Shown here piece by piece: positions 25,742 through 34,923 of a DNA stretch of 64,000 nucleotides. The translations under genes were made by a program, and so were the position numbers. How positions within the stretch are numbered: the stretch's first letter is position 1; each line of letters starts with the position of its first letter. The DNA comes from Pseudomonas sp. NC02 (lineage in GTDB: Bacteria > Pseudomonadota > Gammaproteobacteria > Pseudomonadales > Pseudomonadaceae): positions 1,116,001-1,180,000 of the forward strand of contig NZ_CP025624.1 of assembly GCF_002874965.1 (NCBI RefSeq), written 5' to 3'. Below the pieces are notes generated by a model that saw nothing but the letters and a program-made list of their open reading frames with translations, was not told the origin of the DNA and searched no databases.

Positions 25742-26731
25742 TCAGCTGAGTTTGTGCAGGTAGGCCGGTAAAGGTTGTTCAGGCAGCACCGACAGCACTT
25801 TCAAGCGCTGCAACATCCGCTGCCGGGCCCGTTGCAGGTGCTCGCGCAGGTTCAGGGCGGCGGCGTCGAAGGCGCCATGCAGCAACAGCTCAAGGATCAG
25901 CCGGTGCTCGGCCAGCATCGCCGGATCGGCACCGATGCCCAGCAGCCGGTAGAAAATCCGGCTGATGATCATCGGGCTCTGCCCCTGGCGGATCAGCGCG
26001 GCGATCTTGCGATTTTGCAGGCCGGCGAGGCAGTGCTGGTGCAGGTCTTCCTCGATCTGCTCGATCTCTTCCAGGCTGCAATGGGCGCTGTTTTGCGCAT
26101 CGAGCACGCGCTGCAACATGGCGTGCAGCAGGTCGCGGTCGAGGTTCGGCGCGCTCTGGCGCAGGGCTTCGGGCTCCAGGCAGGCGCGCAGTTCGTAGTC
26201 TTCGGTGACTTCCCGGGCAGTCAGTGGCCCGGCCAGCCATTGGGAATAGGGTTCCTTTTCCACCAGGCCACGGTCCCGCAGGCGCATCAGCGCTTCACGC
26301 ACCACCGCGCGGCTGACGTTGTAGTGCTCGGCGGCGGCCTGTTCATCGAGGCGATAATGCCCGAAGGCGATACAGGTCGAGAGCGCCGCGCCGATTTCCT
26401 CGACGATGCGCTCCCCCAGTGGCCGGGTGTCCACCAATTCATCTTCACCGTTGAGGCCCAGGTGCGCATGGCTCAGGGGCAGGCGCAGCGGCTCCATGTC
26501 CAGGCCGTCGGGGTTGATCAGGTAACCCCGGCCATCGAAGCGGCAGATCAACCCTTCGTCATGCAACAGGTTCAGCGCCTTGCGCACCGGCACCCGGCTG
26601 GTGCCGAACAATTCGGCCAGCGGCGCTTCCAGCAACACCAGGCCATGGCGGGCGGTGCCGTGGGTGATGGCGTCGCGCAGAACCTGGTGAATCATCGCGT
26701 AACGGGAAGCCGAGGCTGACACTGCTTTCAT
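25742..26731 (-). CDS. GntR/FCD transcriptional regulator with tandem winged-helix domains
   Basis: The 329-residue protein has two GntR-type winged helices. Domain 1 (about residues 10-74) has recognition segment LAELFGTSRVPVRKALNLL, and domain 2 (104-168) has AAEHYNVSRAVVREALMRL. A helical FCD effector domain (178-302) follows, with acidic and histidine residues of its usual metal site (EEDLHQHC, EHRLILELLLHG, REHLQ). A single winged helix is the rule in this family. The ATG at 26731 has a GAGAG site. The gene is divergent from the amidase operon and very likely controls it; an imide or dicarboxylate effector is inference. Confidence 0.9.
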   Translation of the reverse strand: MKAVSASASRYAMIHQVLRDAITHGTARHGLVLLEAPLAELFGTSRVPVRKALNLLHDEGLICRFDGRGYLINPDGLDMEPLRLPLSHAHLGLNGEDELVDTRPLGERIVEEIGAALSTCIAFGHYRLDEQAAAEHYNVSRAVVREALMRLRDRGLVEKEPYSQWLAGPLTAREVTEDYELRACLEPEALRQSAPNLDRDLLHAMLQRVLDAQNSAHCSLEEIEQIEEDLHQHCLAGLQNRKIAALIRQGQSPMIISRIFYRLLGIGADPAMLAEHRLILELLLHGAFDAAALNLREHLQRARQRMLQRLKVLSVLPEQPLPAYLHKLS

Positions 26732-26796: not shown

Positions 26797-26818
26797 GCCA
26801 CGTCGGTGGCACTTTTTT
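26797..26818 (+). terminator. Possible intrinsic terminator in the divergent region
   Basis: Stem GCCAC / GTGGC with a GTCG loop, then AC and six T on the plus strand. The stem is only 5 bp. It lies upstream of the GntR gene, where plus-strand transcription is not expected, so it may guard the operon from antisense read-through or be chance. Confidence 0.35.
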
Positions 26819-26856
26819 GGGGCCTTCAGAGGGTTGATGTTACTTTTCTGCACCAA

Positions 26857-26883
26857 AATGTATTTATTAATAAAAGATACATT
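26857..26883. promoter_or_regulatory. Putative GntR operator 1 (27-bp inverted repeat)
   Basis: Arms AATGTAT and ATACATT are separated by 13 bases that include TATTAAT. It lies 126 bases upstream of the GntR start and 184 bases before the amidase ATG. Arm and spacer lengths equal those of operator 2. Confidence 0.65.
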
Positions 26884-27023: not shown

Positions 27024-27050
27024 AATGTACATTTTATTAATATGTACATT
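27024..27050. promoter_or_regulatory. Putative GntR operator 2 (27-bp inverted repeat)
   Basis: Arms AATGTACAT and ATGTACATT flank an ATTAAT-rich centre. The site ends 17 bases before the amidase start codon, so bound protein would block initiation or the transcription start. The centre-to-centre distance to operator 1 is 167 bases, close to 16 helical turns, which would put both sites on the same face of the DNA. Confidence 0.7.
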
Positions 27051-27067: not shown

Positions 27068-28411
27068 ATGTCAGACGCCACTTCAATGGCCGAGGATTTC
27101 GCCAGCGGTCGCAGCGACCCGGTGCAGGTCCTGGAACAGGCACTTGCCCACGCGAGCATGGCCCCCGGCGTGTTCGTCTCCCTGACCGCCGAGCGCGCCC
27201 GCCGTGAGGCCGAAGCGTCGGCTGCCCGTTGGCGTGCCGGCCAGCCGTTGAGCGTGTTCGACGGGGTGCCACTGGCCTGGAAAGATCTGTTCGATGTGGC
27301 CGGCAGCATTACCACGGCGGGCGCGGCCTATCGCCGTAATGCGCCGGCCGCCTTGCTGGACGCGCCAAGTGTGGGCCTGTTGTGCCGCGCCGGAATGGTC
27401 AGCGTCGGCAAGACCAACCTCAGCGAGCTGGCCTATTCCGGCCTGGGCCTGAACCCGCATTTCGGCACGCCGCACAACCCGAGCAGCGTCGACCAACCGC
27501 GGATTCCCGGCGGTTCGTCGTCGGGTTCGGCAGTCGCGGTGGCGGCCGGCATCGTGCCGATCGCCATGGGCACCGACACCGCCGGCTCCATCCGTATTCC
27601 GGCTGCGCTGAATGGCGTGGTGGGGTATCGCAGCAGTTGCCGGCGCTACAGCCGCGACGGCGTTTTTCCGCTGGCTCACACCCTCGACAGCCTCGGCCCG
27701 CTGACCCGCAGCGTGCGCGATGCACTGGCCATCGACGACCTGCTCAATGGTCGCGAGCAGCGCCCGCCCCGCCCGCCCCGCAGCCTCAATGGCCAGCGGT
27801 TCTGGGTCGAGCAAAGTGTGCTGGAAGACGCACGGGTTGAACCTGCGGTGCGCGACAACCTGCAACGTTGTGTGGACCGATTGAAGGCAGATGGCGCACT
27901 GATTGAGGTACGCCCCTCGAAGACCTTCCAGGCCACCCTCGACCTGATCCAGCACCAGGGCTGGCTCGGCGCCTTCGAAGCCTTCGCCCTCCACGAAGCC
28001 CTGCTCGACAGCCCTGATGCCGAGCAACTCGACCCCCGCGTTCGCCGTCGCCTTGAAGCGGCCCGCACACTGCCGGCCAGCCAACTGCTGGCGCTGTACG
28101 ACGCCCGTCGCTGCCTGCAACAGCAGCTTGTCGACGAACTCGACGGCGCGATCCTCATCACCCCCACCGTGGCCCATGTGGCCCCGGCCCTGGCGCCGTT
28201 GGAAGCCGACTTTGAGCTGTTCGTCAGCACCAATCTCGCCACCCTGCGCCTGACCATGCCCGGCAGCCTGCTGGACATGCCCGGCGTCAGCCTGCCCAGC
28301 GGCCGTGATGCCCTGGGCCTGCCCACCGGCCTGTTGCTCAGCGCCCCCAGCGGCGAAGACGCGCGCCTGCTTCGGGCCGCGCTGTCAGTAGAAACCGCAC
28401 TCACTTTTTAA
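27068..28411 (+). CDS. Amidase-signature family hydrolase
   Basis: The 447-residue protein carries the full amidase-signature triad: Lys72 in [10 protein letters not shown], the cis-Ser151 in [12 protein letters not shown] and the nucleophile Ser174 in [13 protein letters not shown]. It should hydrolyse a carboxamide to acid and ammonia in the cytosol. It leads the operon controlled by the divergent GntR gene and is followed 11 bases later by an imidase-like gene, so the natural substrate may be the half-amide that an imidase releases. The substrate is inference; GatA is unlikely because gatB and gatC are absent. Confidence 0.9.
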
Positions 28412-28422
28412 GGAGACACATC

Positions 28423-29301
28423 ATGGCTAAAGACATCCTCTGTGCATTTGGCGTCGACGTCGACGCGGTCGCCGGCTGGCTCGGTTCCTATGGCGGCGAA
28501 GATTCCCCGGACGACATTTCCCGCGGCCTGTTCGCCGGTGAAATCGGTGCGCCACGCCTGCTCAAATTGTTCGAGCGCTACGGCCTGCGCACCACCTGGT
28601 TTATTCCCGGCCACTCGATGGAAACCTTCCCCGAGCAGATGAAGGCGGTGGCCGACGCCGGTCACGAAATCGGTGTGCACGGCTACAGCCACGAAAACCC
28701 GATTGCGATGACGGCCGAGCAGGAAGAAATCGTCCTCGACAAGTCCATCGAGCTGATCACCCAGGTCACCGGCAAACGCCCCACCGGCTACGTCGCGCCG
28801 TGGTGGGAATTCAGTAAGGTCACCAACGAACTGCTGCTGAAAAAAGGCATCAAGTACGACCACAGCCTGATGCACAACGACTTCCACCCGTACTACGTGC
28901 GCAAGGGCGACACCTGGACCAAGATCGACTACAGCCAGCACCCCGACACCTGGATGAAACCCCTGGTGCGCGGCGAAGAAACCGACCTGGTGGAGATCCC
29001 GGCCAACTGGTACCTCGACGACCTGCCGCCGATGATGTTCATCAAGAAAGCCCCGAACAGCCATGGCTTCGTCAACCCGCGTCACCTCGAAGAAATGTGG
29101 CGCGACCAGTTCGACTGGGTCTACCGCGAGCACGAACACGCGGTGTTCACCATGACCATCCACCCCGACGTGTCCGGCCGCCCGCAAGTGCTGCTGATGC
29201 TTGAGCGGCTGATCGAACACATCCAGAGCCATGCCGGCGTGCGCTTCGTCACCTTCGACGAAATCGCCGATGACTTTATCCGCCGCCAACCGCGTACCTG
29301 A
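28423..29301 (+). CDS. Imidase/PgdA-type hydrolase (polysaccharide-deacetylase fold)
   Basis: The 292-residue protein has the NodB-type fold with metal ligands Asp14 (FGVDVDAV), His86 and His90 (VHGYSHENP). Residues such as [20 protein letters not shown] and YVAPWWEFS closely match Helicobacter PgdA as I remember it. The same subfamily also includes bacterial imidases (cyclic imide hydrolases), about 293 residues long, which open succinimide-like rings to half-amides. There is no signal peptide, so it is cytosolic, and it neighbours an amidase and a carrier. This favours imide hydrolysis over peptidoglycan deacetylation. The choice between them is inference. Confidence 0.8.
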
Positions 29302-29343: not shown

Positions 29344-30684
29344 ATGTCTATCTACAACAAGCTTGATCTGACTGGCTGGAAACCCCGGCAACTGACGCCC
29401 AAGGAAGTGCGTTTCGCCACCTGGATCGCGTTTTTCGCCTGGGTGTTTGCGGTGTATGACTTCATCCTTTTCGGCACCTTGCTGCCGGAAATCGGGCGGC
29501 ACTTTAACTGGGGTGAAGTGGAGCAGGCGGAGATTGCGACATGGGTGGCGGTAGGCACCGCCGTGGTCGCGCTGGCCATCGGTCCGATCGTGGACAAACT
29601 GGGTCGGCGCAAAGGGATTATTTTCACCGTGGCCGGTTCGGCGATCTGCTCGGCGCTCACCGCCATTGGTGGTGCGTGGGGCAAGTCGTCGCTGATCCTG
29701 ATCCGTTCGCTGGGCGGCCTGGGGTATGCCGAGGAAACCGTCAACGCGACTTACCTGAGCGAACTGTACGCCGCTTCGGATGATCCAAAACTGGCCAAGC
29801 GTCGCGGCTTTATCTACAGCCTGGTGCAGGGCGGCTGGCCGGTGGGCGCGTTGATCGCGGCGGGTTTGACCGCGCTGTTGCTGCCGGTGATTGGCTGGCA
29901 GGGGTGCTTCGTGTTTGCGGCGATCCCGGCGATTGTGATCGCGGTCATGGCGCGCAAGCTCAAGGAAAGCCCGCAGTTCCAGATTCACCAGCGCATCAGC
30001 GAGCTGCGTAAAAGCGGCGCGGTGAAAGAGGCGCAAAACGTCGCCGTGACCTACGGCGTGGACTATGACGAACACAGCAAGGCCGGCCTCAAGGCCGCAT
30101 TCCGTGGCCCGGCCCGCCGTGCAACCCTGGTGATCGGTGCGGCGCTGCTGCTCAACTGGGCGGCGATCCAGGTGTTCAGCGTGCTGGGTACGTCGGTGAT
30201 CGTCAGCGTGCACCACATCTCGTTCGAGAACTCGCTGATCATCCTCGTGCTGTCGAACCTGGTGGGCTACTGCGGCTACCTCAGCCACGGCTGGATGGGC
30301 GACAAGATCGGCCGGCGCAATGTCATCGGCCTGGGCTGGATGCTCGGCGGGCTGTCGTTTGCCGGGATGCTGTTTGGCCCGAGCAACATGGCGATGGTGG
30401 TGGGGCTGTACAGCCTGGGCCTGTTCTTCCTGATCGGGCCGTACTCGGCGGCGCTGTTTTTCATCAGTGAAAGTTTCCCCACCAGCATCCGGGCTACCGG
30501 TGGCGCGATCATCCATGCCATGGGGCCGATTGGTGCGGTGGTTGCCGGGTTCGGCGCGACCCAGGTGTTGTCGGCCGGGAGTGACTGGCAGACCGCTGCG
30601 CTGTGGTTTGGCGCAGTGCCGTGCTTCCTCTCCGGTGCGTTGATGTTTGCCGCGCGCCATGTGCGTCCGGAAACCGTCCAGTAA
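29344..30684 (+). CDS. MFS transporter (metabolite:proton symporter type)
   Basis: A 446-residue carrier with twelve predicted TM helices. The loop 2-3 signature reads VDKLGRRKG and its second-half repeat WMGDKIGRRN. The N-terminal FFAWVFAVYDFILFGTLLPEI resembles acid/aromatic-acid symporters of the major facilitator superfamily. It is the third gene of the operon, after the two hydrolases, and probably imports the amide, imide or derived acid. The transport direction and substrate are inferred from context. Confidence 0.88.
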   Translation: MSIYNKLDLTGWKPRQLTPKEVRFATWIAFFAWVFAVYDFILFGTLLPEIGRHFNWGEVEQAEIATWVAVGTAVVALAIGPIVDKLGRRKGIIFTVAGSAICSALTAIGGAWGKSSLILIRSLGGLGYAEETVNATYLSELYAASDDPKLAKRRGFIYSLVQGGWPVGALIAAGLTALLLPVIGWQGCFVFAAIPAIVIAVMARKLKESPQFQIHQRISELRKSGAVKEAQNVAVTYGVDYDEHSKAGLKAAFRGPARRATLVIGAALLLNWAAIQVFSVLGTSVIVSVHHISFENSLIILVLSNLVGYCGYLSHGWMGDKIGRRNVIGLGWMLGGLSFAGMLFGPSNMAMVVGLYSLGLFFLIGPYSAALFFISESFPTSIRATGGAIIHAMGPIGAVVAGFGATQVLSAGSDWQTAALWFGAVPCFLSGALMFAARHVRPETVQ

Positions 30685-30696
30685 GGAGTTGATTCG

Positions 30697-31458
30697 ATGA
30701 GTCGTAAAGTTGCATTGATTACCGGTGCCGCCAGCGGCATCGGCCAGGCCCTCGCGGTGGCGTATGCCCGCAGCGGCGTGGCGGTGGTGGGCGGGTATTA
30801 CCCGGCCGATCCCCATGACCCGCATCACACAGTTGCGCTGGTGGAAGAGGCGGGCGGTGAATGCCTGATGTTGCCGCTGGACGTGGGCGATACAACCTCT
30901 GTGGATAACCTGGCGGCGCAGGCGGTCCAGCACTTCGGTCGCCTCGATTACGCGGTGGCCAACGCCGGATTGTTACGCCGTGCGCCACTGCTGGAAATGA
31001 CCGACGAGCTGTGGAACGAGATGCTCAACGTCGACCTGACCGGGGTGATGCGCACCTTCCGGGCGGCAACCCGGCACATGCATGAAGGCGGTGCGCTGGT
31101 GGCGATTTCGTCGATTGCCGGTGGCGTGTATGGCTGGCAGGAGCACGCGCACTATGCGGCGGCCAAGGCCGGTGTGCCGGGGTTGTGTCGGTCGCTGGCG
31201 GTGGAATTGGCGCCGTTGGGGATTCGTTGCAACGCGGTGATTCCGGGGTTGATCGAAACGCCCCAGTCGCTGGACGCGAAGAACTCCCTCGGGCCGGAAG
31301 GGCTGGCGAAAGCGGCGCGGGCGATTCCGTTGGGCCGGGTCGGGCGGGCGGATGAAGTGGCGTCCCTGGTGCGGTTTTTGACCAGTGAGGAATCGAGCTA
31401 CCTGACCGGGCAGAGCATCGTGATTGATGGTGGCTTGACCGTGCGCTGGCCGGACTAA
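30697..31458 (+). CDS. Short-chain dehydrogenase/reductase
   Basis: A classical SDR of 253 residues: cofactor loop TGAASGIG (9-16), NAG (in VANAGLL), catalytic Ser in AISSIAGG and the YAAAK dyad. The C-terminal [16 protein letters not shown] is typical of FabG-like oxidoreductases. It should use NAD(P)(H) to interconvert a hydroxyl and a ketone. It follows the carrier by 12 bases with an AAGGAG site, so it belongs to the same operon. The substrate is unknown. Confidence 0.88.
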
Positions 31459-31634: not shown

Positions 31635-32384
31635 ATGCCCCAACTCGCTAACCGCCGTGCCGTGATCACTGGTGCCGGCAGCGGCATCGGCGCCGCCATC
31701 GCCCGTGCCTACGCCGTCGAAGGCGCGCACCTGTTGCTAGCCGACCGCGATGCCGCCACCCTCGCCGAAACCGCCATCACCTGCCGCAACCTCGGCGCCG
31801 AAGTCCTCGAGTGCGTTGCCGATGTCGGCACCGTCGACGGCGCCCGGGCCAGCGTCGATGCCTGCGTCACCCACTACGGCGGCATCGACATCCTGGTCAA
31901 CAACGCCGGCATGCTGACCCAGGCCCGTTGCGTCGACCTGACCCTGGACATGTGGAACGACATGCTGCGCGTCGACCTCACCAGCGTGTTCGTCGCCAGC
32001 CAGCGCGCCTTGCCTCACATGATCGCGCAGCGCTGGGGCCGGATCATCAACGTCGCCTCGCAACTGGGGATCAAGGGCGGCGCCGAGTTGACGCACTATG
32101 CGGCGGCCAAGGCCGGGGTGATCGGCTTCACTAAATCCCTGGCCCTGGAAGTGGCCAAGGACAACGTACTGGTCAACGCTATCGCACCCGGGCCTATCGA
32201 AACGCCATTGGTAGGCGGCATCAGCGACACCTGGAAACGCGCCAAGGCCGCCGAGTTGCCCCTGGGTCGTTTCGGCCTGGCGGACGAAGTCGCGCCGACT
32301 GCCGTGCTGCTGGCCAGCGAGCCGGGCGGCAATCTGTTCGTCGGCCAGACCCTTGGCCCGAACTCCGGCGACGTCATGCCATGA
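31635..32384 (+). CDS. Short-chain dehydrogenase/reductase (FabG-like)
   Basis: The 249-residue SDR has the loop TGAGSGIG, the NNAG motif (LVNNAGML), catalytic Ser in NVASQLG and YAAAK. It is only distantly similar to the SDR just upstream, so the pair is not a recent duplication. It has its own AGGAG ribosome site after the REPIN. It is probably an oxidoreductase in the same catabolic route; which carbon chemistry requires two SDRs is not evident. Confidence 0.88.
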   Translation: MPQLANRRAVITGAGSGIGAAIARAYAVEGAHLLLADRDAATLAETAITCRNLGAEVLECVADVGTVDGARASVDACVTHYGGIDILVNNAGMLTQARCVDLTLDMWNDMLRVDLTSVFVASQRALPHMIAQRWGRIINVASQLGIKGGAELTHYAAAKAGVIGFTKSLALEVAKDNVLVNAIAPGPIETPLVGGISDTWKRAKAAELPLGRFGLADEVAPTAVLLASEPGGNLFVGQTLGPNSGDVMP

Positions 32385-32397
32385 GCGGGTATTAAGC

Positions 32398-32691
32398 ATG
32401 TGCGGACTTTGCGGCCTGTTGGGCGAAGACCTGCACTGGAGCGATCCCTTGGGCGATGAATTGCCGCGCCGACGCGAACGCCTGCGCCGCATCGCGGCGA
32501 TCAACCAGGTGCTGGCGGTGTTCCGGCTCAAGGTCGAAGACTTCCAGGGCGCGTCCTATCTGCTGCTGGGCGCCACCGGCAAACAGGAACTGGCCAGCGG
32601 CCTGGATCAATTGTGGCAGGCGGCAGAGACCATGCTCGGTCGACCGCTGGACCCGTTGGACCCGCGCCTGCTCGATCATCTGGAACTGTAG
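32398..32691 (+). CDS. 97-residue protein with N-terminal MCGLCG motif
   Basis: A small soluble protein opening with MCGLCGLLGED, followed by a basic helix (PRRRERLRRIAAINQVLAVF) and a helical tail. The two N-terminal cysteines could bind a metal. The Cys2-Gly pattern recalls class II glutamine amidotransferases, but the rest of that fold is missing. It starts 13 bases after the second SDR gene and precedes a CobW GTPase, so a metal-related role is possible. The in-frame start at 32353 lies within the SDR gene and is less likely. Its TAG stop is part of a REPIN. I do not recognise the family. Confidence 0.65.
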   Translation: MCGLCGLLGEDLHWSDPLGDELPRRRERLRRIAAINQVLAVFRLKVEDFQGASYLLLGATGKQELASGLDQLWQAAETMLGRPLDPLDPRLLDHLEL

Positions 32692-32776: not shown

Positions 32777-33747
<971 letters not shown>

Positions 33748-33751
<4 letters not shown>

Positions 33752-34923
33752 TCACGCTTCGCGTCCTCGGCACCTCGGTGACCTTGCTCGAAACCTTGCG
33801 TGTGCGAGCGGAAAAAGAGCTGGGCATTCGCCTGGTGTACCAGGTGCATGATGTCGAGCAGGCCCAGCGCATTGCGGTGATGCAGCCTGACAGCTACGAC
33901 CTCTACGACCAGTGGTTTCACAACGTCGACTTCGTGTGGCCGGCGCGGGCGATCCAGCCGATCGACACCCGGCGCATCGCGCTGTGGCACGAGATCAACG
34001 ACCTGCCCAAGCGCGGACGCTTGTCCGCCAACGACCGTCTGGGCAGCGGCAGTGTGCCCAGCGAGCGCCTCTTCGTGCAGCACGACGGCAGCCTCGGCAG
34101 CACCGTCACCGAACGCATCAGCATGCTGCCCCTGACCCACAACGCCGACAGTTTCGCCTACCGCCCCGAGCGCTTGCCCGAAGGGTTCAACCGCGGCAAC
34201 GAGAGTTGGGGCTGGTTGCTGGACCCGGCCTGGGGCGCACGCACTGCGTTGCAGAGCGACGCCGCCATCGGCGCCCTGGACGCGGCGCTGGCCGTGCAAG
34301 GCGCGGGCCTCGCGAGCTTCAAGGACATCGGCAACATGAGCATCGAAGAGATCGATGTACTGGCCGATATCCTGGTGCGTAAACAGAAGGAAGGCCACTT
34401 CGCGGCGTTCTGGTCCGATGACGAGGAAGCCGCGCAACTGATGCTCAGCCCGAGCATCGATATCCAGAGCCTGTGGTCACCGACCCTGATGCGCCTGCAT
34501 CGGGCCGGGGTCAAATACCGCCTGGCGGTGCCCCGTGAAGGCTATCGCGCCTGGTTCGGCGGGTTGTCGCTGTCGCGCCATGCCAAGGGCCCGGTGCTGG
34601 ATGCGGCCTATGCCTACCTCAACTGGTGGCTGTCCGGCTGGCCGGGTGCGGTGATGGCGCGCCAGGGTTATTACATCGGCAACCCGGCTCGCAGCCGTGA
34701 TCACCTGAGCAGTGCCGAATGGGACTACTGGTACGCCGGGCTGCCCGCCCGGGAAGAGCTGTTGGGCAGCGATGGCTTGCCGCTGATCGATGTGGGTGAC
34801 GTGCGCGACGGCGGTTCCTATGAACAGCGCATGGGGCATATCGCGGTGTGGAACTCGGTGATGGATGAGCACAACTATCTCGTGCGGCGTTGGGGGGACT
34901 TCATGCGGGCGCGAACGTCTTAA
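33748..34923 (+). CDS. Substrate-binding-protein fold without signal peptide
   Basis: The 391-residue protein resembles PotD/PotF-type periplasmic binding proteins: LRVLGTSVTLLETLRVRAEKELG is a first lobe strand-helix, and DLYDQWFHNVDFVWPARAIQPID, AFWSDDEEAAQLMLSP and AAYAYLNWWLSG match the fold. However, the protein starts directly at strand 1, with no Sec, Tat or lipoprotein signal. The ATG overlaps the CobW stop, leaving no room for one. No permease or ATPase gene is near. It may be a cytosolic ligand binder or sensor; the ligand is unknown. Confidence 0.75.

Follow-up and report, generated by a model that had tools for sequence, protein, structure and literature searches.

Two winged helices per subunit in a GntR/FCD regulator family, and a matching split candidate operator in its most studied branch

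A GntR-type regulator encoded in a 64,000-nucleotide stretch of Pseudomonas sp. NC02 DNA (contig NZ_CP025624.1, positions 1,116,001 to 1,180,000; hereafter the window, to whose own numbering all coordinates refer) belongs to a family of FCD regulators whose subunits each carry two winged helices, and the branch of this family that was studied most has a matching split candidate operator. GntR regulators form a large bacterial family, and its members are usually described as having one winged helix per subunit. That the proteins described here form a GntR subfamily in which the second winged helix makes the FCD dimer a four-headed ruler, with an operator split by exactly 15 bp and two DNA contacts per subunit, is a proposal whose truth we put at about even. 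If true, it would be a natural example of how a longer operator can arise in a repressor family, through duplication of a DNA-binding head or acquisition of one from elsewhere.

The regulator gene (25742..26731, minus strand) encodes a protein of 329 amino acids with the layout GntR-GntR-FCD, although longer in-frame starts are possible, up to a GTG at 26812. The GntR-type winged helix (PF00392) is present twice, and each copy scores above the Pfam cut-off by itself. The first head, WH1 (residues 10-74; 26510..26704, minus strand; 49.6 bits alone), has the recognition helix SRVPVRKALNLL and a canonical GRG wing, and the second, WH2 (residues 104-168; 26228..26422, minus strand; 32.0 bits alone), has the recognition helix SRAVVREALMRL and an unusual wing, EPYSQW. 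The heads are joined by a linker of 29 residues (residues 75-103; 26423..26509, minus strand), for part of which the model confidence is lower and in which R83, G92, D101 and R103 are conserved among 27 aligned sequences. The C-terminal part of the protein is the all-helical FCD effector domain (PF07729; residues 179-300; 25832..26197, minus strand; 38.9 bits). Among the Pfam matches of the regulator to an E-value of 1 there is neither the UTRA domain by which the HutC subfamily is recognized, FCD being found instead, nor the RCK_C domain of BusR, in whose place stand the FCD helices. The first-pass annotation had read two complete GntR winged helices and a single FCD domain from the translation, and had proposed a separate profile search with each head and a structure prediction as checks. 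The profile scores given above bear the reading out, as does the predicted fold, which includes both winged helices together with the FCD domain at good confidence (pLDDT 85.9). Residues 102-316 or thereabouts (106-312 when searched alone) superpose on complete single-winged-helix FCD proteins. The regulator is a variant rather than a standard member of the FadR/VanR layout (one winged helix plus FCD), since it has two winged helices and these are kept in 52 of 53 diverged homologs.

The same annotation had treated the regulator as a single unusual protein, a view that gives way to that of a conserved family. A protein search in which 7998 candidates were scored returned 327 relatives at E <= 1e-10, and among the best 120 of these 327, which were examined, most are 312-367 amino acids long, a few are fragments, and the name, where one is given, is nearly always just GntR family regulator. 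Both heads are present in all 27 relatives that were aligned, which had been picked as full-length. Matches to the regulator occur in 13 of 398 phylum-wide genomes at 1e-15 (one of the 13 solely over residues 124-306), in 2 of 369 genomes of a class-wide draw at 1e-25 and, at 1e-20, in 48 of 199 Pseudomonas genomes, 8 of 198 genomes of the family of G178 and 26 of 151 genomes of the family of G307. From kin among the named plasmid records, the last two families are taken for enterobacterial and rhizobial, respectively. Tandem homologs that could be named come from plasmid records of gamma-, beta- and alphaproteobacteria (Pantoea, Klebsiella, Halomonas, Paraburkholderia, Aminobacter, Acidiphilium and Agrobacterium). 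The tandem GntR-GntR-FCD family is apparently widespread and undescribed. No such protein is described, as judged by titles and abstract openings, among the papers listed for GntR/FCD regulators with a double or tandem winged helix or HTH domain, many subscription papers lying outside the coverage. Foldseek and VIA-align gave no solved chain that matches both heads in series among the matches listed (50 each), and a sequence search of solved structures matched the two heads apart.

Residues expected to contact DNA are kept in both heads. In a set of 53 diverged loci, consisting of 52 tandem homologs and the single-winged-helix L090, the guanine-reading arginine is conserved as R46 of WH1 in 52 of the 52 tandem proteins and as R141 of WH2 in all 53. 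E35 and the canonical wing residue G69 of WH1 are likewise kept in 52 of 52, whereas E130 and the wing residue Trp165 of WH2 are each found in 52 of 53, the exception in both cases being L090. Trp165 is a hallmark of the tandem proteins. In ten far homologs searched with Pfam at 1e-5, a second GntR stretch was called in two and FCD in nine; we read the small number of second calls as a matter of model sensitivity rather than absence, the contact residues being kept. The FCD pocket keeps the putative metal-binding acidic and histidine residues that are usual, though not universal, in FCD regulators: E227, H231, H276 and H298 are invariant in 27 sequences, and are present in 42, 40, 41 and 50, respectively, of the 53 diverged loci.

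Profile comparison of WH1 with WH2 aligned 35 columns at 40% identity, and the two heads are therefore not recent copies of each other. A tree was built from every fourth of the 27 homologs (seven WH1 and seven WH2 rows) and 32 other GntR-type domains of the genome, leaving out three short weak domains and 12 of the 49 GntR matches. WH1 is placed with rows outside the FCD and MocR groups, which we take to be HutC-like, and WH2 with FCD rows, in both cases with weak support, and a single clade of WH1 and WH2 also withstands the AU test (p 0.371). In the same genome but beyond the window, a pair of distinct GntR genes lie side by side (G000:C1:3928917-3929863), an arrangement that is a possible source of tandem-head proteins.

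The putative target operon is divergent from the regulator gene and lies on the plus strand throughout. It begins with an amidase of the amidase signature family (27068..28411; Pfam Amidase, 242.9 bits; NCBIfam PRK06102, 696.6 bits), whose nearest relatives among solved structures are a probable amidase and biuret hydrolase. This gene is followed by a hydrolase with the polysaccharide deacetylase fold (28423..29301), and then by an MFS transporter (29344..30684) and two SDR oxidoreductases (30697..31458 and 31635..32384), all three identified by profile matches. Next are a small protein that has no Pfam match (32353..32691), with a hypothetical gene in the same place in the plasmid relatives, a CobW-type GTPase identified by Pfam (32777..33751) and a solute-binding protein (33748..34923) that is the likely end of the operon. 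The neighbours suggest an operon for breakdown of an amide or cyclic imide. Cyclic imidases of Pseudomonas share the fold of the deacetylase-like hydrolase, and our guess is therefore that a cyclic imide or ureide is ring-opened and the product then hydrolysed as an amide. HP0310 of H. pylori is a close relative of the hydrolase (538 bits to 3qbu), and the PuuE allantoinase a more weakly related one; the HP0310 report describes that protein as an "atypical deacetylase" related to PuuE allantoinase, with a small closed site and no detected activity on polysaccharides (PMC3084791). The context of amidase, transporter and SDR genes may point to a small cyclic amide as its substrate. Judged by titles and abstract openings, the literature within coverage, which excludes many subscription papers, describes no such operon.

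Much the same operon accompanies the regulator on plasmids of Pantoea, Klebsiella and Paraburkholderia and, in part, Acidiphilium. The cassette of one Pantoea record (L157) is cut at the GTPase and that of another (L092) is without an annotated amidase, an Aminobacter plasmid has an amidase/deacetylase pair near the regulator, and the neighbourhoods in Roseateles (L095) and Agrobacterium (L161) are different ones. The plasmids with the cassette (L093, L092, L157 and L159) include a Klebsiella variicola plasmid typed as conjugative and a Paraburkholderia plasmid typed as mobilizable.

The divergent region between the regulator gene and the amidase gene is 336 bp long and contains two inverted repeats, both of the form ATGTA-N15-TACAT. 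Candidate operator A (27025..27049, unstranded) spans 25 bp and stops 18 nt short of the start codon of the amidase gene, where it would be well placed for repression. Candidate operator B (26858..26882, unstranded) is 167 bp from A and has its core oppositely oriented. The half-site centres are 20 bp apart, or about two helical turns, and the 15 bp between the arms are AT-rich with no conserved G for a second arginine. Allowing up to three mismatches, the full 25-bp consensus occurs at two places in the 6.89 Mb genome, A and B, and the reversed control at none; this rarity is due to the AT-rich core. Without the core, the dyad AYGTA-N15-TACRT is common enough (8 places versus 9 in the reversed control) to be useless by itself as a genome-wide search pattern, and it was rejected for that purpose. 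A sigma-70 promoter scan of the intergenic region found none. A terminator-like hairpin at 26797-26810 on the plus strand (1 found, 0.5 expected) is probably a chance occurrence. Just downstream of site B is a GTAACA word (also at about 26833-26850 in the window) that recurs at about -150 of the regulator gene in the 58-65% homologs L197-L201 and may be a promoter element of that gene.

Conservation of the two sites was followed in 107 Pseudomonas loci, which are not independent cases because many come from closely related genomes and that of the window is included. By a rule requiring at least 8 of 10 arm letters within a position band, A is present in 106 of the loci and B in 86, leaving 21 without B under the same rule. 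The one locus without A (L055, from a metagenome-assembled Pseudomonas genome) is without B as well, although its regulator is 82% identical. A less kin-dependent test is provided by 16 diverged regions with regulators of 46-65% identity, 11 from outside Pseudomonas and 5 from within it. With a gap of 15, at least 9 of 10 arm letters are found in 12 of the 16 regions and all 10 in 8, compared with at most 4 and 1 for every other gap in the range 0-30. In 500 dinucleotide-shuffled sets, neither count was reached once at any gap. No convincing site was seen in two of the 16, the Halomonas (L158, 51%; best 8/10) and Paraburkholderia (L159, 46%) regions.

The presence of the site also follows that of the regulator. 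The 25-bp pattern, with up to three mismatches, is matched in 44 of the 45 Pseudomonas genomes that have a close regulator (at least 58% identity), 116-373 bp upstream of the regulator gene (G806 has one extra match elsewhere), and the sole exception, G796, carries ATGTA-N15-TACAT without a mismatch but around another core. Among 151 Pseudomonas genomes without any relative of the regulator the pattern is matched in only 6, each time with 2-3 mismatches; this is at or below chance, since the pattern read backward matches in 15 of 199 Pseudomonas genomes. In the three Pseudomonas genomes whose sole relative is at 31-33% identity, the 25-bp pattern is not matched. No convincing ATGTA-N15-TACAT was found for tandem homologs at 28-44% identity, and no convincing N15 site for the 31-33% Pseudomonas homologs, for the alphaproteobacterial plasmid homologs or upstream of a Paraburkholderia amidase (L208). 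A search for an operator common to the far relatives was rejected, as counts of spaced dyads in 38 upstream regions were no higher than in simulated controls. The split candidate operator is therefore supported only for the subfamily of roughly 50% identity and above.

The half-sites themselves extend beyond the arms. From 85 different half-sites the consensus is AYGTAYNTWTT, about 11 bp, with information beyond base 5 at Y6, T8, W9, T10 and T11; C and T are about equally frequent at base 6, and base 7 is nearly free. The information in the arms is inflated because they were chosen on bases 1-5, and the information past base 5 lies in an AT-rich stretch and may in part reflect a promoter. Site B ends in TCCAT instead of TACAT in all nine non-Pseudomonas loci that have it, and the B sites of L082, L092, L093, L124-L128, L157 and L197-L200 end in ATCCAT rather than TACAT. 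This one-sided variation could separate strong from weak operators. The distance between A and B is 154, 155, 164, 166-168, 177-179 or 189-190 bp in Pseudomonas, 183-186 bp in the seven diverged non-Pseudomonas loci with both sites, and 130-143 bp in four 58-65% homologs. These distances do not share one helical phase, and looping of the DNA, for which such a phase was sought, is weakly supported.

Based on these patterns, we lean slightly towards a homodimeric, four-headed FCD repressor in which one pair of heads, most likely WH1, reads the outer half-sites and the WH2 pair lies over the spacer. In the predicted fold WH2 occupies the position of the single winged helix in regulators like TM0439 and Atu1419, beside the FCD domain, and WH1 would be an added second GntR head on the 29-residue linker. 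The dimer, with its four winged helices, would read one 25-bp operator, the outer ATGTA and TACAT being gripped by one winged-helix pair and the gap being fixed, as by a ruler, by the other pair over the AT-rich 15 bp. Repressor at A would silence the operon from the amidase through the deacetylase, MFS and SDR genes, and repressor at B the regulator gene, possibly with the two sites bridged, until a small ligand (an amide, imide or carboxylate), held together with metal by the FCD domain, released it. It had been supposed from the translation that each subunit of a tandem protein could bind either two sites or a single long one. The genome evidence favours one long split site of 25 bp per dimer, occurring twice in the divergent region. 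The half-sites equal those of Atu1419 but stand 15 bp apart, and a plausible role of the second domain is therefore to hold them at a distance of two helical turns; occupation of the gap by the second pair of heads is the simplest reading. WH1 is the likelier reader of the outer half-sites because WH2 is beside the FCD domain, where the paired heads of Atu1419 read abutting half-sites.

Alternatively, both heads of one subunit could read each half-site, with ATGTA contacted by WH2 and the YNTWTT next to it by WH1, or with these roles exchanged, which would again put four heads on 25 bp but in another order. The length of the half-site consensus agrees with such sharing. In an alignment made by eye, WH2 keeps equivalents of most Atu1419 contact residues (R31, E34, S44, R45 and R49), while WH1 is without an equivalent of R31 and Thr46 is replaced by Val in WH1 and Ala in WH2; these residues do not decide which head would read ATGTA, although WH2 matches more of the set. 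However, heads placed canonically beside FCD, as WH2 is, read abutting half-sites in Atu1419 and not half-sites 20 bp apart, and we consider this arrangement possible but rather doubtful. It is also conceivable, though distinctly unlikely, that a single head reads DNA while the other holds the dimer or tetramer together, with a tetramer placing its two dimers on a pair of ATGTACAT palindromes spaced by 17 bp. In the window, site A does consist of two such palindromes, the wing of WH2 is non-canonical with a near-invariant Trp, and Atu1419 is, according to its report, a tetramer with two sites 190 bp apart (PMC7797058). The inner halves of the palindromes are nonetheless not conserved, given the C or T at base 6 and the nearly free base 7, and a contact arginine kept in both heads of all 52 tandem homologs would be unexpected if one head were purely structural.

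Two further readings would remove the link between the second head and the operator. The 25-bp sites could be those of a different regulator or part of the promoter structure, with the tandem protein acting elsewhere; by eye the core TATTAATA is promoter-like, and the far relatives are without the site. We find this improbable given the co-occurrence of site and regulator among 199 genomes (44/45 versus 6/151), the position of the site upstream of the regulator gene and a half-site identical to that of an FCD relative. It is very hard to credit that WH1 is a passenger of a fusion and that the protein acts as an ordinary FCD repressor. Residues 106-312 alone do match complete single-winged-helix FCD proteins, and the positions of the 49 GntR matches in the source genome indicate no second two-headed protein there, yet WH1 is retained in 52 of 53 diverged homologs at identities down to 29%, with the conservation of E35, R46 and G69 described above.

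With two heads per subunit in a conserved family, and a candidate operator that departs from that of a solved relative by a fixed 15-bp gap, the relation of domain number to operator length can be tested directly with short DNA duplexes and point mutants. The candidate operator is highly specific, being found at two places in a 6.9 Mb genome, and it provides a handle on an uncharacterised putative amide-breakdown operon that is also found on plasmids.

Among known regulators, the single-winged-helix FCD proteins TM0439 (PDB 3sxy), PmiR (7xp0) and AlkR (9isw) superpose in their entirety on residues about 102-316 of the tandem protein and have no counterpart of WH1. WH1 scores by profile and by sequence with HutC-type regulators such as NagR/YvoA, TreR and PhnF. 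Regulators of the HutC type carry UTRA rather than FCD and have one winged helix. BusR, which is composed of a GntR winged helix, a coiled coil and RCK_C, measures a fixed 22 bp between two half-motifs according to its report (PMC8517857). The candidate operator described here likewise has a fixed half-site distance, and BusR is, by analogy, a precedent for a GntR-type regulator that gauges a fixed gap, although it has one winged helix per subunit, uses a tetrameric coiled-coil ruler and lacks FCD.

The closest parallel is Atu1419 of Agrobacterium fabrum (VanR, FCD subfamily; PDB 6za3), with which the regulator shares the FCD fold, the winged helix and, in its candidate operators, the ATGTA/TACAT half-site, as well as two sites far apart in a divergent region (about 190 bp in Atu1419, 167 bp here) and a catabolic region as putative target. 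Atu1419, with its one winged helix, binds ATGTATACAT, in which the half-sites ATGTA and TACAT stand back to back and Arg45 reads the G (PMC7797058). The candidate operator is not of this abutting type, as it has the same half-sites separated by 15 bp. The regulator thus differs from Atu1419 in having two winged helices per subunit instead of one, a 25-bp candidate operator with a 15-bp gap instead of a gapless 10-bp operator, and half-site information that extends to base 11 instead of a half-site of 5 bp.
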